Shown here piece after piece: positions 5,396-14,409 of a DNA stretch of 60,734 nt. The number at the start of each line of letters is the position of its first letter. Within the stretch, counting starts at the first letter, position 1. The translations under genes and the position numbers were made by a program. The stretch spans positions 1 through 60,734 of the forward strand of contig CAJXUQ010000022.1 in the NCBI GenBank assembly GCA_913061145.1, read 5' to 3'. The notes beneath the pieces are model-generated. The model saw only the letters and a list, made by a program, of their open reading frames with translations, made no database searches and was not told where the DNA came from. This DNA is from an uncultured Haliea sp. GTDB taxonomy: Bacteria > Pseudomonadota > Gammaproteobacteria > Pseudomonadales > Halieaceae.

Positions 5396-7081
5396 GTGGC
5401 CACGCCCGAGCCCCCGGTGTTGGCGCCCCGCTACTACCGCGACAATTTCCAGCACCTCTGCGATACAGTAGAAACGCTCTACGGCGATCTGTTGCAGCCC
5501 GAAGAGCACGCCTGGCTGGCACAGTGGCGTGCGGCTTCGGAACCGGCGCAGTGCCTGTACGTCAGGCTGGTTTCTCGCGTAGGGCCGTGGTTTCGCGTGA
5601 ACAGGCTGGATTATCCGGAAATCGGGGCTGTTGAGGCGCCGCTGGCGGAACTTCACGCACTCGACCTGCTGCTGTTGCCGCAGGAAGCCAGCGAGGAGTC
5701 GCTGCAGGTGCAGGACCTGGACCGCCTGTTCACACTGCCCGAGTGGCGCCGCGCCTTCCGGGATCGCTTGACTGCGGCGGCACAGCGCAGCAAGGCGCAG
5801 TGGGTGGCAGCGGTGGAGGGGCTGGCTGAGCCGGTGGCCAATGTGCTGCAGGCGCTATGCGCAGCAACCAGCGAGCGCCTGGTTGCCCCGCTGGGTGTGG
5901 ATACGGTCGGCCTGTTCCAGTTGCTGTTCTTCGGTAACCGGCGGCAAACGCTTACCGACTTCGTGCTCAGCGACCTGGGCATCAACCGCTATTATCCCTA
6001 CGTACTGACCCGCGCGCAGCGACGCTTCCCCTGCCGCGAAGCGGTGGACGAGTACCGGCAACTGGGCGAACTGGCAGACAGGCACTGGCTGCTGGAACAG
6101 GCCGGGGAGGCGGAGGACTTCACCGCACTGGCTGAGGCCTTGCTCGACACCCCACCGCGCCACGCCACCAGTGAGCGACGCTACTGGCTGCTGTGCAATC
6201 GGCTGGGGCGCAATCTGGAGCGCAGCGGCGACTGGACGCTGGCCGGGCGGCTCTACCAGCGCAGCCAGCTGCATCCGGCGCGTGAGCGCCATCTCCGTGT
6301 GCTGGAGCAGCGCGGATGCTGGCAGAAGGCGCAGGACGCGTGTACGGAGCTGTTGCAAAGCCCCTGGTGTGAAGAGGAACGCGATGCGGCCCGGCGCATT
6401 CTGCCGCGGCTGCAGCGCCAACTGGGTTTGCCCCCGACTCCGCGCAGGCGTCAGGCGGTGCCGGTGCTGGACCTGGCGTTGCCGCAGACAGAGACTCGGG
6501 TAGAGATCGCGGTGGCCGAGCACCTCGCCGATGGCGAGTGGGACTCGGTGCACTATGTGGAGAACAGCCTGTTCAACAGCCTGTTCGGGCTTGCCTTCTG
6601 GGAGCAGATTTTTGCGCCGGTGCCCGGCGCTTTCCACAACCCCTTCCAGGCCGTGCCCGCAGACATGTACCAGGCCGGGTTTCGCAGCCGCAGGGAGGTG
6701 GCGCTGGCGCGTCGCCTGCGCGAGCTGGCCACGGGTGATCTCGCTGCCGAGTTGCAGGCTGCGTTGCAGCGCTACGCGGGTTACCAGTGTCGCTGGGTCA
6801 GCTGGCCGTTGCTGCACGCCGATTTTCTGGCCCGGGTCACAGCCTGCATACCACGGGAGCACCTGCTCGCGGTATGGGAGCGTATCCTGTTCGACCCGGG
6901 TGAAAACCGACGCGGCTTCCCCGACCTCATCGCCCTCGGTGAGGGCCCGGGCGCCTATTGCCTGGTTGAGGTAAAGGGTCCGGGTGACCAGCTGCAGCAC
7001 AGTCAGCGGCGCTGGCTGCAGTTCTTCGGGGACCAGGGTATACCGGCGAAGGTGGCGCGGGTGGTGTGGACTGATGGCTGA
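5396..7081 (+). CDS. FAN1-type VRR-NUC structure-specific nuclease
   Basis: The 561-residue product resembles bacterial homologues of FAN1, a 5'-flap nuclease that acts in interstrand crosslink repair in eukaryotes. Length matches the Pseudomonas enzyme from memory. The C-terminal VRR-NUC domain has the PD-(D/E)xK core: PDL with D510, then E525-V-K527 in VEVKGPGDQL, followed by the conserved Q and W. The middle (about residues 60-400) is helical, consistent with the SAP and TPR-like parts of the family. The start is GTG at 5396, 7 bp after the transporter stop. It overlaps the next gene by 8 bp, which implies translational coupling. Confidence 0.9.
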   Translation: MATPEPPVLAPRYYRDNFQHLCDTVETLYGDLLQPEEHAWLAQWRAASEPAQCLYVRLVSRVGPWFRVNRLDYPEIGAVEAPLAELHALDLLLLPQEASEESLQVQDLDRLFTLPEWRRAFRDRLTAAAQRSKAQWVAAVEGLAEPVANVLQALCAATSERLVAPLGVDTVGLFQLLFFGNRRQTLTDFVLSDLGINRYYPYVLTRAQRRFPCREAVDEYRQLGELADRHWLLEQAGEAEDFTALAEALLDTPPRHATSERRYWLLCNRLGRNLERSGDWTLAGRLYQRSQLHPARERHLRVLEQRGCWQKAQDACTELLQSPWCEEERDAARRILPRLQRQLGLPPTPRRRQAVPVLDLALPQTETRVEIAVAEHLADGEWDSVHYVENSLFNSLFGLAFWEQIFAPVPGAFHNPFQAVPADMYQAGFRSRREVALARRLRELATGDLAAELQAALQRYAGYQCRWVSWPLLHADFLARVTACIPREHLLAVWERILFDPGENRRGFPDLIALGEGPGAYCLVEVKGPGDQLQHSQRRWLQFFGDQGIPAKVARVVWTDG

Positions 7082-9374
7082 GCACCGCGTCACCGTGCGT
7101 GAACTGGCGCTGTTCTGTCACCGCAGCGGTGACATAGACCACCGCTTCACGCCTTCACCCACGGGCCAGCAGGGGATTGAGGGGCACCAGCGCATCTACC
7201 GTCGCCGTCCAGCCAGCTACCGCGCGGAGTTTCCCGTGCAGCTCGCCTGGCAGGGGTCAGCAGAGCTGCCGGCGCTGTTGGTCTCCGGCCGTGCGGATGG
7301 TTACGACAGCGAGCAGGGGCTGGTGGAGGAAATCAAGACCTGCCGCATTGACCCGGCGCGCATCCCACCTGCGGTAACGCGCCTGCACCTGGCCCAGGGC
7401 AGGCTGTATGCGGCCTTGATTGCAGCCAGCGAGGATTTGCCCGGGCTGGCGGTACAGCTGACCTGGCTGCAGCTGGATACGGACGCGGAGCACTCGCTGC
7501 GGCAGGACTACAGTCGCGAAGAGCTGGATGACTTCCTGCAGGATACCCTCCTGCGCTACGGCCAGTGGCTGGCACAGGTGGCGCAGCGCCGCCAGCGGCG
7601 CGATGCCAGCCTCACGGCGCTGGCGTTCCCCCACGCGCAGTTCAGGGCTGGCCAGCGCGAGCTTTCCGAGCGTGTGTACAAGTGCATTCACCAGGCCGGT
7701 CAGCTATTGCTGGAGGCGCCCACTGGCATCGGCAAGACCGCCGCCGTGCTGTACCCCGCCCTGAAGGCCCTGGGCACAGGCCGCCATGACAGCGTCGTCT
7801 TTGCGACGACCCGTATCAGCGGGCGCCGCGCCGCGGAACAGGCCATGCAGCGCTTTGTGGCGGCGGGCTATGGCGGCAACGCGCTCAGCCTCACAGCCAG
7901 GGAGCAGGCCTGCCTGGCGCCGGGAAAAGCCTGCCACGGAGAGGATTGTCCCTACGCCAGCGGCTACTACGACCGTCTGCCCGCCGCCCTCGAGGAAGCG
8001 CTGCAGGCGCCGCTGTTGGGGCGCGAAGCGCTGGCCGGGATTGCCGGGCGCCACTCGGTATGCCCCTACCAGCTCAGCCTGGACCTGGTGCCCTGGGTGG
8101 ATGTCATTGTTGCCGATGTCCACCACGTGTTCAGCCCCACCGCGAACCTCGCCGAGCACCTGACAGCCAGCGGTGGACGTTGGACAGTACTGCTGGACGA
8201 GGCGCACGGCCTGCCCGACCGGGCGCGCGGCATGTACGGAGCCGAGCTGCCCAAGGCGCTGGTGATGGCGGCCCGTCGCGAGTCCTCCGGGGACCTGCGA
8301 CGGACGCTCGATCGGCTCAATCGCCAGTTGCTGGCGCTGTTGAAACTGCAGGGGTGGGTGTCCGCCAGCCATTGGCTGGTGGACGTGCCAGAGCCGCTCG
8401 GCAGGGCGTTGGCAGAGTGTGTGGAGGCGGTGAATGCAGCGCAGGCGCTGGATGCGTTTGTGTTGCAGGCCCGCCCTGCCCTGCGCGACCTGTATTTTGT
8501 CGCGCTGCAGTGGCAGCGCCTGCTGGAATGCTGGGGTGGCGAGTTCCGGCTGGAGCTTGAGCGGGGCGCTGGCCCCCAGGGCTTGTTACTGCGTGTGCAT
8601 TGCCTGGAGCCCTCGCGATTGCTGGCGCAGCGTCACCAGACGATGCATGCGCTGGTCGTGTTCTCCGCCACGCTCAGCCCGCAGCAGTGGGCACTGGATA
8701 CCCTGGGTCTGACGCCCGCGGCGGTGGCCTGGTGCGCGCCCTCCCCGTTCACCCGGGACCAGCTGCAGGTGCAGATCGCCTCGCATGTGGATACCCGCCT
8801 GCAGCAGCGTGCCGCAAGTTTGCCGGTGCTGGCCACCCTGCTGCGGCAATGGCTGGAGAGTGAGCCCGGGAACTGTTTGCTGTACTTCCCTTCGTACCGC
8901 TATCTGGAGGACTGCCTGCAGCAGATGCTGGAACAGGGTTGGCCGGCGGGCCGCCAGCGCTGGGTGCAGGGCCGGAGTGCGGCGGGTGGCCCGGACCTGT
9001 TGTCGTTGCTGCAGCAGGCGCGGGATGTGGCGGCGTTCTGTGTGCTCGGCGGTGCCTTCGGCGAGGGTATCGACCTGCCCGGGGATGAGTTGCACAGCGT
9101 GGTGATCGTGGGTGTTGGCCTGCCACAGGTGAGTGCCGGCAACGAACAGCTGCGGCAGCTGTTCGGCAGCCGCTACGGGAATGGCTTTGCCTACGCCTAC
9201 CAGTACCCGGCGGCGCAGAAGGTCAGCCAGGCGCTGGGCCGTGTGGTGCGCACCGGAAGCGACCGCGGCAAGGCACTGCTGGTCGATGCGCGTTATGCCG
9301 ACCCCGGCTGGCGGGCATTGCTGCCGCCCTGGTGGGACTACACGAGCTATCCGGTGACATCCAGCGGACGATAG
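7074..9374 (+). CDS. Fused Cas4/RecB-like nuclease and XPD/DinG-type Fe-S helicase
   Basis: This is a 766-residue fusion. The N-terminal about 200 residues carry a PD-(D/E)xK nuclease core: D75 in GRADGYD, then E86-I-K88 in VEEIKTC. The rest is a superfamily 2 helicase of the DinG/XPD class: Walker A at about 214-222 (EAPTGIGKT), four cysteines at 280, 287, 292 and 330 fitting the [4Fe-4S] domain, a DEAH box at 375-378, and motif VI QALGRVVR at 719-726. The start ATG at 7074 lies inside the FAN1 gene. In-frame ATG 6984 is rejected because it would overlap 98 bp more. The likely role is unwinding and processing of branched or crosslinked DNA with the upstream nuclease. Confidence 0.9.
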   Translation: MAEHRVTVRELALFCHRSGDIDHRFTPSPTGQQGIEGHQRIYRRRPASYRAEFPVQLAWQGSAELPALLVSGRADGYDSEQGLVEEIKTCRIDPARIPPAVTRLHLAQGRLYAALIAASEDLPGLAVQLTWLQLDTDAEHSLRQDYSREELDDFLQDTLLRYGQWLAQVAQRRQRRDASLTALAFPHAQFRAGQRELSERVYKCIHQAGQLLLEAPTGIGKTAAVLYPALKALGTGRHDSVVFATTRISGRRAAEQAMQRFVAAGYGGNALSLTAREQACLAPGKACHGEDCPYASGYYDRLPAALEEALQAPLLGREALAGIAGRHSVCPYQLSLDLVPWVDVIVADVHHVFSPTANLAEHLTASGGRWTVLLDEAHGLPDRARGMYGAELPKALVMAARRESSGDLRRTLDRLNRQLLALLKLQGWVSASHWLVDVPEPLGRALAECVEAVNAAQALDAFVLQARPALRDLYFVALQWQRLLECWGGEFRLELERGAGPQGLLLRVHCLEPSRLLAQRHQTMHALVVFSATLSPQQWALDTLGLTPAAVAWCAPSPFTRDQLQVQIASHVDTRLQQRAASLPVLATLLRQWLESEPGNCLLYFPSYRYLEDCLQQMLEQGWPAGRQRWVQGRSAAGGPDLLSLLQQARDVAAFCVLGGAFGEGIDLPGDELHSVVIVGVGLPQVSAGNEQLRQLFGSRYGNGFAYAYQYPAAQKVSQALGRVVRTGSDRGKALLVDARYADPGWRALLPPWWDYTSYPVTSSGR

Positions 9375-10618
9375 CCGGGCTTGGCGAAGGCGAGTTGCAC
9401 CGTGCCGATAATCCGTTCGCGGAAGCCGCCCTCGCAGTAGCAGAGGTAAAACTCCCACATGCGGATGAACTGGTCGTCAAAGCCCTGTCGGCGCACGGCG
9501 TCCAGCTGCGCGATAAAGCGCTCGCGCCAGGCGGCCAGGGTGCGTGCGTAGTCCAGGGTGATGTCGCGCAGGTGCACCATCTGCATGTCAGTGTCGCGGG
9601 CCAGGTGGTTGGCAATCACGGCCATGGACGGCAGGCAGCCTCCCGGGAAGATAAACCGCTTGATGAAGTCGACGGTATCCCGCGCCTGCTGGTAGCGCTG
9701 GTCGCTGATGGTGATCGCCTGTATGACCATTTTCCCGTGGGGTTTCAGCAGTTCGCTGCAGCGCGCAAAGTAGGTGCCGTAAAACTGGTGACCCACCGCT
9801 TCGATCATCTCGATGGACACCAGTTTGTCGTATTGTCCGGTGAGGTTGCGGTAGTCCTCGCAGAGCACCGTTACCCGATCACCCAGGTCCAGCTGGGCCA
9901 CGCGCTCGCAGGTGTAATTGAATTGCTCTCTGGAGATGGTCGTTGTGGTGACCCGGCAGCCATAGTGTTGCGCGGCGTGAATCGCCATGCCGCCCCAGCC
10001 AGTGCCGATTTCCAGCAGGTGATCGTCCGGGCTGAGTTCCAGCTGCCGGCAGATCTCGTCGAGTTTGGCCAGGGATGCTTCCTCCAGCGAGGTGTCGGCG
10101 CTGGAGAAGAGCGCGGAGGAGTACATCATGGTCGGGTCGAGAAACAGGCGGAAAAAATCGTTGCCCAGGTCGTAATGTGCGGCGATGTTCCGGCGTGAAC
10201 CGGAATGCGTGTTGCGGTTCATGCCGTGGGCGAGCTTCAGGCCCAGCCGCACCAGCCAGGACTGGCCGCGCTCCATGGCTTCCATGGTGAGCATGTTGGC
10301 GCTGAACAGGCGGGTGACCGTGGTCAGGTCGGGCGTCGACCAGTCGCCCTCGATGTAGGCCTCGCCTGAACCAATCGTGCCGCCGGAAAGCAGTTTGCCG
10401 TACACCGCGGGGTTGTGCACGGTCACCTCGGCATGGGGTTCGCCATCGCGTCGTGAGCTGCCGACACGGAACGTCTCGCCACCATCGTGCAGGGTGAGGC
10501 TGCCCACCGTAAAGTTGCCAAGTACCCGCAACAGCAGCTTGCGCGCCAGCTGATGGTTGGACCAGCGTTTACCGGCCTTGGTTTGCAGCCGCACCTGGCT
10601 GACACTCATGTCGTTCAT
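9347..10618 (-). CDS. cfa: Cyclopropane-fatty-acid synthase-like SAM methyltransferase
   Basis: The 423-residue protein belongs to the Cfa family, which transfers a methyl group from S-adenosylmethionine to double bonds of phospholipid acyl chains at the membrane surface. The SAM site is visible as LLEIGTGWGGMAIHAA. The segments YDLGNDFFRLFLDPTMMYS and SIEMIEAVGHQFY also match the family. It is the third gene of a sigma-E-linked operon and starts one base after DUF1365 ends. Related Cfa-like enzymes under sigma-E in Rhodobacter make methylated precursors of furan fatty acids, so the product may not be a cyclopropane. It overlaps the convergent helicase by 28 bp. Confidence 0.92.
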   Translation of the reverse strand: MNDMSVSQVRLQTKAGKRWSNHQLARKLLLRVLGNFTVGSLTLHDGGETFRVGSSRRDGEPHAEVTVHNPAVYGKLLSGGTIGSGEAYIEGDWSTPDLTTVTRLFSANMLTMEAMERGQSWLVRLGLKLAHGMNRNTHSGSRRNIAAHYDLGNDFFRLFLDPTMMYSSALFSSADTSLEEASLAKLDEICRQLELSPDDHLLEIGTGWGGMAIHAAQHYGCRVTTTTISREQFNYTCERVAQLDLGDRVTVLCEDYRNLTGQYDKLVSIEMIEAVGHQFYGTYFARCSELLKPHGKMVIQAITISDQRYQQARDTVDFIKRFIFPGGCLPSMAVIANHLARDTDMQMVHLRDITLDYARTLAAWRERFIAQLDAVRRQGFDDQFIRMWEFYLCYCEGGFRERIIGTVQLAFAKPGYRPLDVTG

Positions 10619-10619
10619 A

Positions 10620-11375
10620 TCACGCTCCAGAAGGTCTCGATCCGGGGTGGTTGTGCACCGGCACCCCTTTGATAAACAGGCGCAGTGCCTGCCAGTAAAT
10701 ACCCAGGGCCACCTTGAGTGTCATCAGTGGGTGACGCCAGAGAATGCGGTTCAGGTTGCGGCCGGTCATGGGTTGGGCGCGCAGGGTGAGATTGGCCTCG
10801 AAAATGCGCCCCTCGTCGGTGTCCGTCGCCAGGTAGATTGACAGGCGCTCGCCGGGGGTGTTGCTGCGCCACACGTAGTGCATGTCCATCGGGTTGAAGG
10901 GCGACACATGCATGGCCTTGTCGAAGGTATGTTGCAGCCAGCCGCCGCTCTCGGGGCCTCGCAGGACGTAGCTATGGCGCTCGTCCCAGGGTGTGTTGGT
11001 CACCTCTGCCACCAGGAACTCGAGGCGACTTTCGTCGTCATTGAAGCAGTAGTAACAGGCTATCGGGTTGATCTGGTAACCGAAGTAGCGCAGGTTGGCG
11101 AGCAGGTAGATGGGCCCGGTGTGCGCCTCACCGGTTTCTTCGCGGATGCGGCGCCGCACTTCGTCTGCAAGCGGTATTGAGGGATCACCGAGAAAGTCGC
11201 TGCGCAGGAAGCGTGCCGGCGCCCAGCGCGTGCTGGACCACAGCCAGCGTTTGGCAAACAGCTGGGGCAGTTCATCCAGGCATATCCAGGGCATGAAGAC
11301 GCGATAGCTGAAGGCGTGCTCACGGGGCAGGAAGCGGCGGTGGCGCAGCATGCCTTGGTATAGCCGGGACTTCAC
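10620..11375 (-). CDS. DUF1365 family protein
   Basis: This 251-residue member of DUF1365 starts MKSRLYQGMLRHRRFLP and contains the family stretch FGYQINPIACYYCF and a conserved WRHPLMTLKV segment. The biochemical function is unknown. The family is repeatedly found beside amine-oxidase-like flavoproteins and Cfa-like methyltransferases in sigma-E/ChrR regulons, as here. It overlaps the upstream flavoprotein gene by 4 bp and is followed after one base by cfa, so the three are almost certainly co-translated. A role in lipid modification is inferred from context only. Confidence 0.88.
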   Translation of the reverse strand: MKSRLYQGMLRHRRFLPREHAFSYRVFMPWICLDELPQLFAKRWLWSSTRWAPARFLRSDFLGDPSIPLADEVRRRIREETGEAHTGPIYLLANLRYFGYQINPIACYYCFNDDESRLEFLVAEVTNTPWDERHSYVLRGPESGGWLQHTFDKAMHVSPFNPMDMHYVWRSNTPGERLSIYLATDTDEGRIFEANLTLRAQPMTGRNLNRILWRHPLMTLKVALGIYWQALRLFIKGVPVHNHPGSRPSGA

Positions 11376-12631
11376 GCGGCGGCCTTGGCCGCCTGGTTGA
11401 TGCCGTCCGCCACACGCATGGCGCTGACGACACCATCTTCATGGAAGCCGTTGTGCCAGTAGGCGCCGCAGTACCAGGTATTGCGTGTGCCGTTGATCTC
11501 CTGCCAGCGCTGCTGGGCCTTGATGCCCGCCAGCGAAAACACCGGGTGGGCATAGTTGAACGTGCCGAGGATGCGGTTCGGGTTGATGGAGGCAGTGTCG
11601 TTCAGCGTCACGCAAAAGGTCTCCGGTGCATTGAGTCCCTGCAGGATATTCATATTGTAGGTTACCACGGCTCGCCCGGAATCCACGCCCAGGCGGTAAT
11701 TCCAGCTCGACCAGGTTTTGCGGTTCTGCGGCAGCAGGCGGACGTCGGTGTGCAGCACCACCTCGTTGTTCTGGTAGGGCAGTGCACCGAGGATGGCCTT
11801 TTCCTCCTCCGATGGGTCGGCAAGCATGCGCAGGGCCTGGTCGGAGTGTGCCGCCACCACCACCTGATCGAAGCGGAAGCTGCGGCCATCGCGCAGGGCG
11901 AGGTCAACGCCGTTGGGATTCCGGTTGATGTGGGTGACCTCGCTGGAGGTGTGTATACGGTCTTCGAAGCGCTGGCAGAGCGGCCGCAGGTATTCCCGCG
12001 AACCGCCTTCCACGACCCGCCACTGGGGTCGGTTGTTGACCGAAAGCAGGCCGTGATTGCGGAAGAATCGCAAAAAGAATTCCAGTGGGAAATCGCTCAC
12101 GCTGGCGCAGTCTGCAGACCAGATTGCGGAGGCCATGGGCACCAGGTAATGACTGCTGAAGGCATCGCCGTAGCGTTTGCGCTGCAGGTAGTGGCCCAGC
12201 GTTTCCCCGGGCTCCAGCAGTCCGGACTCCAGGTCGGCGACGGATTCACGGTTGAAGCGCAGGATGTCGCGCACCATGCCCAGGAAGCGGGGCGATGCCA
12301 GATTGCGTCGCTGCGCGAAGAGGGTATTGATGCTGCTGCCCGAGTATTCGAGGCCGCTGTCGAGATCGCTGACGCTGAAGCCCATGTCCGTCGGTTTGCT
12401 GCTGACGCCCAGTTCCTGCAACAGGGCGATGAAATTGGGATAGGTCCAGTCGTTGTAGACGATGAAGCCCGTGTCCACGGCGTAGCGCCGGGTGCCCAGC
12501 TTGACATCGACGGTGGCCGTGTGGCCCCCGATCTGCGTCCCTGCCTCGAACACAGTCACGCGGTGCGCGCGGCTGAGATAGTGGGCACAGGACAGGCCGG
12601 AAATACCTGAACCGATGACTGCGATATCCAA
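11372..12631 (-). CDS. FAD-dependent amine-oxidase-like protein (COG2907)
   Basis: This 419-residue flavoprotein has an N-terminal dinucleotide-binding motif (GSGISGLSCAHYL, residues 7-19) followed by VFEAGTQIGGHTATV. It belongs to the amine oxidase/phytoene desaturase superfamily. COG2907-type proteins are annotated only as predicted NAD/FAD-binding oxidoreductases. First gene of the flavoprotein-DUF1365-cfa operon, divergent from the sigma factor gene. A sigma-E-type promoter lies about 85 bp upstream. In Rhodobacter, genes of this sigma-E class take part in furan fatty acid formation. An oxidation or desaturation of a methylated acyl chain would fit, but it is inference. Confidence 0.88.
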   Translation of the reverse strand: MDIAVIGSGISGLSCAHYLSRAHRVTVFEAGTQIGGHTATVDVKLGTRRYAVDTGFIVYNDWTYPNFIALLQELGVSSKPTDMGFSVSDLDSGLEYSGSSINTLFAQRRNLASPRFLGMVRDILRFNRESVADLESGLLEPGETLGHYLQRKRYGDAFSSHYLVPMASAIWSADCASVSDFPLEFFLRFFRNHGLLSVNNRPQWRVVEGGSREYLRPLCQRFEDRIHTSSEVTHINRNPNGVDLALRDGRSFRFDQVVVAAHSDQALRMLADPSEEEKAILGALPYQNNEVVLHTDVRLLPQNRKTWSSWNYRLGVDSGRAVVTYNMNILQGLNAPETFCVTLNDTASINPNRILGTFNYAHPVFSLAGIKAQQRWQEINGTRNTWYCGAYWHNGFHEDGVVSAMRVADGINQAAKAAA

Positions 12632-12715: not shown

Positions 12716-12743
12716 ATTACGCCCTCCCGCTGCCGCTGGATCA
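12716..12743 (-). promoter_or_regulatory. Sigma-E (ChrR-type, ECF11) promoter of the lipid operon
   Basis: On the minus strand TGATCC (12743-12738) is followed after exactly 16 bases by CGTAAT (12721-12716). This matches the TGATCC -35 reported for the ChrR-controlled RpoE of Rhodobacter and has the same layout as the promoter on the opposite strand. The predicted start is near 12710, giving a leader of about 80 nt before the flavoprotein ATG. Confidence 0.82.
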
Positions 12744-12767
12744 TTCTGCTTATTTATAGAAACGATT

Positions 12768-12795
12768 TGATCCGGCTGCCTCGCCGGGGCGTATA
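12768..12795 (+). promoter_or_regulatory. Sigma-E (ChrR-type, ECF11) autoregulatory promoter of rpoE-chrR
   Basis: TGATCC at 12768-12773, a 16-base spacer, then CGTATA at 12790-12795. It mirrors the divergent promoter, with 24 AT-rich bases between the two -35 boxes. It should make rpoE-chrR self-activating. The ATG at 12810 lies only about 8-10 bases downstream of the expected start point, leaving almost no leader. Confidence 0.84.
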
Positions 12796-12809
12796 CTGGC
12801 CTGAACACG

Positions 12810-13430
12810 ATGAAGAACGCGGGTGCGACGGTGGAAGAAAAGATCGACAGTGCGTCGAACGGCTGGCAGGGCCCCACAGGGCGCCGTACCGACGAGTGGA
12901 GCGAATGCCTCACACAAATTGCAGCGACCGGCGATCGCGCGGCGTTTACGCGCTTCTTCCGCCACTTTGCGCCGCTGATCAAGGCCTTCGCCCTGTCCGG
13001 CTCCAGTCTGTCCGCGGCACATGCAGACGAACTGGTTCAGGAAGTGATGTTGAAGGCCTGGCAGAAGGCCTCCGCGTTCAACCCGGAGAAGGCAGCCGCC
13101 AGCACTTGGGTCTACACGATAGCGCGCAACTGCCGCACGGACATGTTTCGTCGTTTGCAGAAGTTCGATACGCCGCTCGCGGCGGACGATTTCATGCCGG
13201 ATCAGGAACCCAGCGAGCCCTTTGCCATGTTGCAGAGTCGCCGCAGCCGGGACACGATCCACGAATTGATGGGTACCTTGCCGCCAGACCAGACGCAGAT
13301 ACTCGCCAAGGTATACATGGAAGGCAAGTCGCACGCGGAAGCGGCGGCTGAGTTGGATCTCCCGCTGGGCACCGTCAAGTCACGGGTCCGGCTGGCAATC
13401 CAGAAATTGCAAATTCAGATAGACAGGTAA
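12810..13430 (+). CDS. rpoE: ECF sigma factor RpoE, ECF11/ChrR-controlled type
   Basis: The 206-residue group IV sigma factor has region 2 at about residues 40-110 (AFTRFFRHFAPLIKAF, then ELVQEVMLKAWQKA and WVYTIARNCRTDMFRR) and region 4 at about 150-205 (LPPDQTQILAKVYMEG, then LPLGTVKSRVRLAIQKLQ). It is followed 13 bp later by its anti-sigma gene chrR. In Rhodobacter this pair senses singlet oxygen. The chosen ATG gives about 20 residues more at the N-terminus than the Rhodobacter protein. A GTG at 12831 is an alternative start. Release from ChrR would activate both divergent promoters. Confidence 0.94.
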   Translation: MKNAGATVEEKIDSASNGWQGPTGRRTDEWSECLTQIAATGDRAAFTRFFRHFAPLIKAFALSGSSLSAAHADELVQEVMLKAWQKASAFNPEKAAASTWVYTIARNCRTDMFRRLQKFDTPLAADDFMPDQEPSEPFAMLQSRRSRDTIHELMGTLPPDQTQILAKVYMEGKSHAEAAAELDLPLGTVKSRVRLAIQKLQIQIDR

Positions 13431-13443
13431 GCAGCAGAATATC

Positions 13444-14100
13444 ATGGCCAAGTTTCATCCCAGCGTTGATTTATTGACCGAGTACGTGGCGGGTATCCTG
13501 CCGCTCGCGCAGTCCGCCTGCATCTCGGCACACCTCAATTACTGCCCGCAGTGCCAGCAGCAAAGTGCCCGCTTGCAGGACCTGGGTGCCGTGTTGTTCG
13601 AGAGCCTGACACCGGTGCCGGTGGGCGACGCGCTGCTCAACACCGTGCTGGCGCGGTTGGACGAGGAGCCGCCCCTCAGCTATCGGCGTGCCCAGGACCC
13701 TGCAGTAGGCCGGCTCCCGGCGTTGTTGCAGCGGCTGATGAAGGGCGATTTCTCCGAGCTGTCCTGGAACAAGATTACGTCCTCCCTGAGCATCAGCTAC
13801 CTGAAAACGGGCGATACCGCCTACGAGTTTGCGCTCTATCACATCAAGGCGGGCGGCAGGATTCCCGAACACACCCACCGCGGCTCTGAAATGACGCTGG
13901 TGCTGCAGGGTGGCTTCTCTGACGCCGCAGGCAGCTACCACGAGGGTGATTTCCTGTTCCGCGAAGCCAGTGACACCCATGCGCCCACTGCCTTGCAGTC
14001 AGAGGATTGCATCTGTCTCGCCGTGCTGGACGCGCCCCTTCGCTTCACCGGCTGGAAGTATCGCTGGATGAACCCATTCCTGCAATTGCGCGCAGGCTGA
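13444..14100 (+). CDS. chrR: Zinc-dependent anti-sigma factor ChrR
   Basis: This 218-residue cytoplasmic anti-sigma factor has two parts. The N-terminal zinc anti-sigma domain has the ligands H5, H30, C34 and C37 (HLNYCPQC), and the C-terminal cupin has H143, H145, E149 and H179. These correspond one for one with the zinc ligands known in Rhodobacter ChrR (H6/H31/C35/C38 and H141/H143/E147/H177 from memory). The Cys pair near its 187/189 is also present (C189, C191). Singlet oxygen should therefore trigger release of RpoE. It is the last gene of the unit and is closed by a strong terminator. Confidence 0.93.
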   Translation: MAKFHPSVDLLTEYVAGILPLAQSACISAHLNYCPQCQQQSARLQDLGAVLFESLTPVPVGDALLNTVLARLDEEPPLSYRRAQDPAVGRLPALLQRLMKGDFSELSWNKITSSLSISYLKTGDTAYEFALYHIKAGGRIPEHTHRGSEMTLVLQGGFSDAAGSYHEGDFLFREASDTHAPTALQSEDCICLAVLDAPLRFTGWKYRWMNPFLQLRAG

Positions 14101-14107
14101 TTCGATC

Positions 14108-14131
14108 GCCCCCTCCCGGGGGCTTTTTTTT
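14108..14131 (+). terminator. Rho-independent terminator after chrR
   Basis: A perfect 6-bp GC stem (GCCCCC 14108-14113 with GGGGGC 14118-14123), a 4-base loop and a run of eight T. It lies 8 bp after the chrR stop codon. Confidence 0.93.
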
Positions 14132-14409
14132 GTCTCCCTTCACCTGTTTGCGGGATAGTGGCAACTGCAGGCCATGGGACGATAAAGTATTGAATCGGCC
14201 AATGCCGGGCCTGCAATTATTTGCCATGTGAATATTAGGCATAATTCCTTGACGGGGGTCTGTGTGCTACAGTCCCGTGCCGAAAAACAGGGAGAGCCGG
14301 GATCAGGGGTTACCAAACGTTACAGAATAAGGTGCCAGACCCTGCTACCACGGCCACAACAACGACAGCAATCTCAACCGACACGCTTGAAAACGGGGTA
14401 GGAAGAACT
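14132..14409 (+). other. Intergenic region upstream of the transhydrogenase operon
   Basis: This is 278 bp without a convincing gene. The middle (about 14180-14250) is AT-rich compared with its surroundings and probably holds the pnt promoter. No pair of boxes has good spacing: TTGACG (14249) and TACAGT (14268) are only 13 bases apart. A ribosome site, GGAAGA, sits just before the ATG at 14410. Confidence 0.5.

Follow-up and report, generated by a model that had tools for sequence, protein, structure and literature searches.

Several bacteria are known to pair an ECF sigma factor, RpoE, with the anti-sigma factor ChrR. In Rhodobacter sphaeroides, responding to singlet oxygen or organic peroxide depends on residues E147 and H177 of ChrR, and furan lipids are needed for the turnover of ChrR under singlet oxygen (PMC6852236). 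In this bacterium, cis-vaccenate becomes a methylated furan fatty acid through the action of UfaM, UfaD (RSP1091) and UfaO (RSP1090) (PMC7380195), and in Halomonas, where the three ufa genes are consecutive, a strain expressing UfaM yields 11-methyl-12-octadecenoate, the methylated intermediate (PMC12089945). The consensus TGATCC-N16-CGTA comes from ChIP-seq in Pseudomonas syringae, where the best matches of RSP1091, RSP1090 and RSP2144 (ufaM) are PSPTO_1118, PSPTO_1117 and PSPTO_1116, respectively (PMC5507510, Table 2 for the matches). Transcription starts for this sigma group have been mapped in Shewanella (PMC4336711), and in Vibrio cholerae the motif has been written TGATC-N18-CGTAT (PMC5241685), a form that is one base longer than N16 implies with a five-letter box. 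In Stenotrophomonas maltophilia, the operon rpoEc-chrR-chrA is divergent from smlt2375-smlt2367, a nine-gene FAD oxidoreductase/CMAS lipid cluster that includes a desaturase gene and has CMAS in two copies; a putative sigma box precedes each unit, and the eight cluster genes seen in the published table are up 165- to 507-fold in a chrR mutant, an effect that is reversed by loss of rpoE (PMC11832516).

The locus described here belongs to an uncultured Haliea sp. and lies in a stretch of 60,734 nucleotides (the window), one contig of a 3.52-Mb genome that is 97.8% complete. The closest named relative found (among the best 80 of 585 UfaM-like relatives) is Haliea salexigens DSM 19537 (family Halieaceae, Gammaproteobacteria), with 94% identity in the UfaM-like protein, 97% in the sigma factor and 97% in ChrR; an open-access literature search found no paper on ChrR in Haliea. 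The arrangement is already known, and the locus (Table 1) is a new example of it, in which a known regulon has been rearranged. The S. maltophilia locus resembles it in that rpoE-chrR is divergent from lipid genes that include FAD oxidoreductase and CMAS genes, with a putative sigma box before each unit; both sides are sigma-dependent there, as is predicted here, and the nine-gene cluster and three-gene rpoE operon of that bacterium (PMC11832516) compare with three and two genes, respectively, in the window. With R. sphaeroides (PMC6852236, PMC7380195), the locus shares the sigma/anti-sigma pair, the eight zinc ligands and the UfaD-, UfaO- and UfaM-type genes (RSP1091-1087 for the R. sphaeroides region); there, however, ufaM lies far from ufaD and ufaO (PMC12089945), whereas here all three form one operon that faces rpoE. 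The likeness to P. syringae (PSPTO_1043-1042 and the phrB-cfa operon) consists of the consensus and the three lipid genes, which in that species occupy a locus separate from rpoE (PMC5507510), whereas here they stand directly opposite rpoE. In P. syringae pv. cilantro (locus L203), the FAD, DUF1365 and CMAS genes, in the same order as in the window and with 61, 38 and 55% identity to their counterparts, follow MerR-like and photolyase genes (ORFs named by eye); the lipid operon of the window comes without a photolyase gene.

Table 1. Features of the locus in the window, and exact TGATCC-N16-CGTA sites elsewhere in the genome (G000)
Feature	Position	Strand	Details
CMAS-family methyltransferase, UfaM-like	9347-10618	-	PF02353, 290.9 bits
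DUF1365 protein, UfaO/RSP1090-like	10620-11375	-	PF07103, 268.7 bits; assigned via the P. syringae genes (PMC5507510, Table 2) and PMC7380195
FAD-dependent amine-oxidase-like protein, UfaD/RSP1091-like	11372-12631	-	PF01593; TTG start; assigned via the P. syringae genes (PMC5507510, Table 2) and PMC7380195
Lipid-operon promoter, ECF11-type, predicted	12743-12718	-	-35 TGATCC 12743-12738, N16, -10 CGTA 12721-12718
Gap between the -35 boxes	12744-12767	.	24 bp, 75% AT
rpoE-chrR promoter, ECF11-type, predicted	12768-12793	+	-35 TGATCC 12768-12773, N16, -10 CGTA 12790-12793
ECF sigma factor, RpoE of RpoE-ChrR	12810-13430	+	ORF start ATG 12810
ChrR anti-sigma factor	13444-14100	+	zinc anti-sigma domain and cupin domain
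Exact N16 site before DUF3833-DUF3429-alcohol dehydrogenase	G000:C3:24592-24567		kept in H. salexigens
Exact N16 site before DUF2878-chalcone-isomerase-like genes	G000:C6:105341-105366		kept in H. salexigens
Fifth exact N16 site	G000:C6:34913-34938		only short ORFs nearby

The earlier note had reported TGATCC-N16-CGTA once on each strand, with outer ends at 12716 and 12795. Pattern matching recovers both occurrences, but the true outer ends are 12718 and 12793, the former ones being two bases too far because 6+16+4 makes 26, not 28. The 24 AT-rich bases that it placed between the -35 boxes are there, with an A+T content of 75% compared with 38% in the flanks. Both facing promoters accordingly fit within one 76-bp stretch (12718-12793), and transcription is predicted to start at about 12711 (-) for the lipid operon and at about 12799-12801 (+) for rpoE-chrR. 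The motif pair is not a chance occurrence: when the window was shuffled 100 times with its dinucleotides preserved, no shuffle contained two matches (mean, 0.06 matches), and, at the rate with which other spacer classes occur in the genome, a match on a given strand within 170 bp has a probability of about 8e-5, and matches on both strands about 6e-9. The argument that identical spacing on the two strands is unlikely by chance holds inasmuch as the pair is non-random, but the identity provides no additional evidence for a special pair because any two promoters of one sigma factor share their spacing.

Among 17 solved relatives of the sigma factor, 2q1z_A, the RpoE chain in the structure of RpoE-ChrR, ranks first (E 2e-32), and the next is at E 4e-15. 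The ATG at 12810 is absent in H. salexigens, whereas an in-frame GTG at 12831 is common to both genomes and, because the ATG is missing in the relative, is the likelier start of the sigma factor; the leader from the predicted transcription start site to this GTG is about 30 nt. The chrR product matches TIGR02451 with 171 bits (cut-off 124.5), is the sole ChrR above the cut-off in the genome and has the solved relative 2z2s_B (E 3e-32). As the earlier note stated, it keeps the zinc ligands of the Rhodobacter protein, all eight of them (H5, H30, C34 and C37; H143, H145, E149 and H179; ligand numbering of the R. sphaeroides protein from PMC6852236). In an alignment of 32 ChrR sequences, drawn from 32 of the 58 loci surveyed below and leaving out L086, L091 and L120 (in-frame stop), seven of the eight ligand columns are invariant and H5 is nearly so. 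With an ECF sigma factor akin to RpoE of R. sphaeroides, a ChrR with the full ligand set and its own TGATCC-N16-CGTA promoter, the locus is a member of the known RpoE-ChrR (ECF11) system. Just 3' of chrR, at 14107-14132, an inverted repeat rich in G+C, with a T run behind it (read by eye), resembles an intrinsic terminator.

The search of the whole genome for TGATCC-N16-CGTA that had been proposed earlier, with the downstream genes listed, returned five exact sites, four of them before recognisable genes. When spacers of 15 to 19 bases were admitted, 18 matches were obtained (6, 5, 1, 0 and 6 for N15, N16, N17, N18 and N19, respectively), so N16 is no commoner genome-wide than N15 or N19 (5 compared with 6 each); the difference is one of placement, 11 of the 13 non-N16 sites lying inside ORFs of at least 400 aa compared with none of the five N16 sites. 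The 4.3-Mb genome of H. salexigens contains four exact N16 sites in the same four places, namely the facing pair and the sites before the DUF3833-DUF3429 and DUF2878-chalcone-isomerase-like genes, and the reversed pattern, used as a control, has no site in either genome. The DUF3833-DUF3429 and DUF2878-chalcone-isomerase-like units are thus probable further targets of the sigma factor. The fifth exact site, which is absent from the four H. salexigens sites and close to which no family was detected in the three nearby same-strand ORFs scanned, is probably a chance match rather than a member of the regulon. Sites with at most one mismatch and an N16 spacer number 136 genome-wide compared with 54 for the reversed-pattern control, an excess that composition may explain.

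The members of the core sigmaE-ChrR regulon that lie under the motif in this genome are the FAD oxidoreductase, DUF1365, CMAS and rpoE-chrR genes. Photolyase belongs to the core regulon elsewhere; here, among the matches listed, which appear complete for the three contigs concerned, no site with at most one mismatch lies near the start of any of the three PF03441 genes. Opposite rpoE there is the lipid part alone, and DUF2878 and DUF3833 are in separate units; of the 80 named ufaM-like loci (those of the best 80 of 585 relatives), 51 contain DUF2878, 13 DUF3833 and 10 a chalcone-isomerase-like gene.

Alignment of the facing promoters with those of H. salexigens (counted by eye) gave 20 identical bases out of 20 in the boxes and 20 out of 32 in the spacers. 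Within the gap, which is 23 bp long in H. salexigens, the two genomes share an unchanged 11-bp core, CTTATTTATAG; it is missing from the 62-bp gap of the third aligned family genome. This core, retained in H. salexigens despite the changes in the promoter spacers, could be an upstream element common to both promoters.

To place the pair in a broader context, 145 genomes of the order were searched, 72 of which had a ChrR match; the survey covers the loci of 58 of these 72 (the 14 lowest-scoring left out), that is, 57 fetched sigma-chrR loci plus the window, with motifs counted from 450 bp upstream to 120 bp downstream of the sigma start and spacers of 10 to 22 bases. Out of 67 exact motifs, 65 have an N16 spacer and two an N17 spacer, the remaining eleven spacer classes being empty, so that N16 is a fixed rule of the sigma factor itself. 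The exact N16 motif points toward the sigma gene in 40 of the 58 loci (missing in 18), occupies the opposite strand in 25 (missing in 33) and is present on both in 18; with at most one mismatch per site the respective counts are 47, 36 and 29, leaving 29 loci where the facing pair is missing even at this threshold. First-order Markov shuffles yielded a sigma-side motif in 0.03 loci per replicate. A FAD gene is divergent within 6.5 kb in 36 of the 58 loci, and 15 of these 36 have the exact pair (25 with at most one mismatch).

The description of the locus as compact is true of the window, with its 24-bp gap, but does not extend to the relatives: a conserved compact geometry was ruled out since the distance between the -35 boxes in the 18 exact-pair loci spans 0-121 bp (0, 2, 2, 13, 14, 15, 24, 24, 26, 40, 42, 62, 64, 64, 71, 102, 119 and 121 bp). 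The gap is richer in AT than its flanks in five of the 15 loci where it measures at least 13 bp (the three gaps of 0-2 bp left out). Helical phasing of the gap is not claimed: the Rayleigh p is 0.014 at a period of 10.0 bp (0.007 when four named loci were added, L167 and L215 excluded), 0.28 at 10.5 bp and 0.48 at 11 bp, values that are uncorrected and involve related loci.

Within the family, seven genomes contain 44 exact sites compared with 13 for the reversed control; given that this control is not empty, single sites in relatives can be due to chance. An exact facing pair within 100 bp occurs in three of the six other family genomes (G040, G149 and G146) and was confirmed at rpoE in G040 and G149. 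Among the best 80 of 585 UfaM-like named loci, 17 have ChrR in the fetched flank, and six of these 17 have the exact facing pair (L167, L172, L178, L183, L215 and L245; L215 and L124, the latter from the order survey, seem to be one contig). The P. syringae genome has eight exact sites, one of them upstream of rpoE-chrR (L287).

Taken with the published consensus, the 18 exact pairs among 58 loci and the S. maltophilia layout, this comparison supports the earlier proposal that one sigma factor serves both units and activates its own gene: from the facing promoters, the stress sigma factor very probably activates the neighbouring lipid operon along with its own gene. It is most improbable that the rpoE-facing site is the sole working sigma promoter, with the lipid-facing copy a weak or relic site and the operon driven from another promoter. 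The exact lipid-side motif is indeed missing in more than half of the order loci, and the TTG start is preceded by a leader of about 80 nt, long enough to accommodate another promoter. Against this, the lipid-side boxes are identical in H. salexigens despite the changed spacer, the exact lipid-side motif recurs in 25 of the 58 loci, the only exact site at rpoE in L256 and L269 (genomes G145 and G148) is the one on the lipid side, and the facing cluster of S. maltophilia is raised by hundreds of fold via the sigma factor (PMC11832516).

With both promoters under one sigma factor, the following mechanism can be envisaged. In unstressed cells, ChrR, with its zinc anti-sigma and cupin domains, would hold the sigma factor; an oxidant would inactivate ChrR and free it. 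The free sigma factor would then fire rpoE-chrR, which would amplify the response and, as the inhibitor ChrR is remade, later shut it off, and would fire, back to back, the three-gene ufaD-ufaO-ufaM-like operon. The products of this operon very likely methylate, desaturate and oxidise membrane fatty acids to give furan fatty acids, which would scavenge oxidants. Furan fatty acids are needed for ChrR turnover in Rhodobacter, so the lipid arm would add another positive loop. The analysis itself establishes the motifs, the gene content, their conservation and the ligand and active-site residues; from these we infer where transcription starts, the dependence on sigma, the furan product, the feedback and the signal oxidant. 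The full explanation, comprising facing ECF11 promoters, ChrR release, self-amplification, a furan-lipid operon and the other units, appears highly likely. A further idea, which we consider a long shot, is that the promoter pair works as an allocator: a single scarce sigma factor would have to choose between two -35 boxes, which in three relatives are 0, 2 and 2 bp apart, so binding on one side may exclude the other and split the output between self-amplification and the lipid that feeds back on ChrR. The relatives with gaps of 0-121 bp provide a natural series for this idea.

The three lipid genes are closely packed, the FAD and DUF1365 genes overlapping by 4 bp and the DUF1365 and CMAS genes lying one base apart. 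At its 3' end, the CMAS gene overlaps a converging helicase gene by 28 bp (9347-9374); the region 5396-9374 (+) encodes, in adjacent, overlapping genes, a VRR-NUC nuclease with a FAN1-type HTH and a Rad3/DinG-like helicase.

The CMAS annotation would make cyclopropane fatty acids the product of the operon. The best curated matches of the UfaM-like protein are cyclopropane synthases, as is its best solved relative, 6bqc_A, which we take to be the E. coli enzyme. Cyclic fatty acids were also seen in the Halomonas strain that expresses UfaM; however, the UfaM of that bacterium, encoded among consecutive ufa genes, gives 11-methyl-12-octadecenoate (PMC12089945). The UfaM-like protein is below the cut-off of all four cyclopropane-type models that it matched (best, 288 compared with 400 bits) and is encoded together with DUF1365 and FAD oxidoreductase genes, that is, with the UfaO/UfaD pair. 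The bicarbonate pocket of E. coli Cfa consists of C139, E239, H266, I268 and Y317, letters that agree with the E. coli K-12 cfa sequence. At these positions the UfaM-like protein reads S, E, Q, I and Y and, with C139 and H266 replaced by Ser and Gln, lacks the Cfa signature.

The same replacement separates the homologues in the order. Among 53 distinct proteins, position 266 is Gln in 38 of the 38 scorable linked ones (the truncated CMAS of L080 being unscorable at this position) and His in 14 of the 14 unlinked ones; position 139 is Ala in 12 and Ser in 26 linked proteins and Cys in all 14 unlinked ones. Unlinked CMAS here are those with no FAD or DUF1365 match within about 1.5 kb, taken from 30 loci out of 78 CMAS matches, and the UfaM alignment comprises 23 of the 33 available sequences. 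Gln266 also occurs in each of the best 80 of 585 relatives, which were picked by likeness to the window protein and include P. syringae L203. An open-access literature search on UfaM and bicarbonate returned no paper title on the enzyme. The residue split supports the existence of two CMAS groups, and the Q group would be the makers of the furan intermediate, as suggested by gene company and by the work on Halomonas and Rhodobacter. On this evidence a furan fatty acid is more likely the lipid product than a cyclopropane one, and cyclopropane fatty acids as the product of the operon seem unlikely.

The singlet-oxygen role proposed in the earlier note rests on homology. It is a real possibility, if a somewhat less than even one, that the signal is superoxide or an organic peroxide rather than singlet oxygen. 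S. maltophilia mutants in the same layout are altered in superoxide tolerance and almost wild-type in singlet-oxygen tolerance (PMC11832516), and phototrophy was rejected as a source of singlet oxygen after the Haliea genome (97.8% complete) gave no Photo_RC match, one control genome being positive. On the other side, the equivalents of R. sphaeroides E147 and H177 are kept (E149 and H179), and P. syringae promoters of this sigma group are induced in singlet-oxygen and t-BOOH assays (PMC5507510, Table 3). A search for rhodopsin is uninformative, as no control was positive.

The locus offers a small, clean case of an RpoE-ChrR regulon, in which this genome and that of Haliea salexigens share four exact sites, each at matching genes. 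It also speaks for a furan-pathway methyltransferase as the product of a regulon gene that is routinely annotated as cyclopropane synthase. In the sampled order, the residue at E. coli Cfa position 266, His or Gln, splits two groups and may serve as an annotation aid if the link to the product is confirmed.
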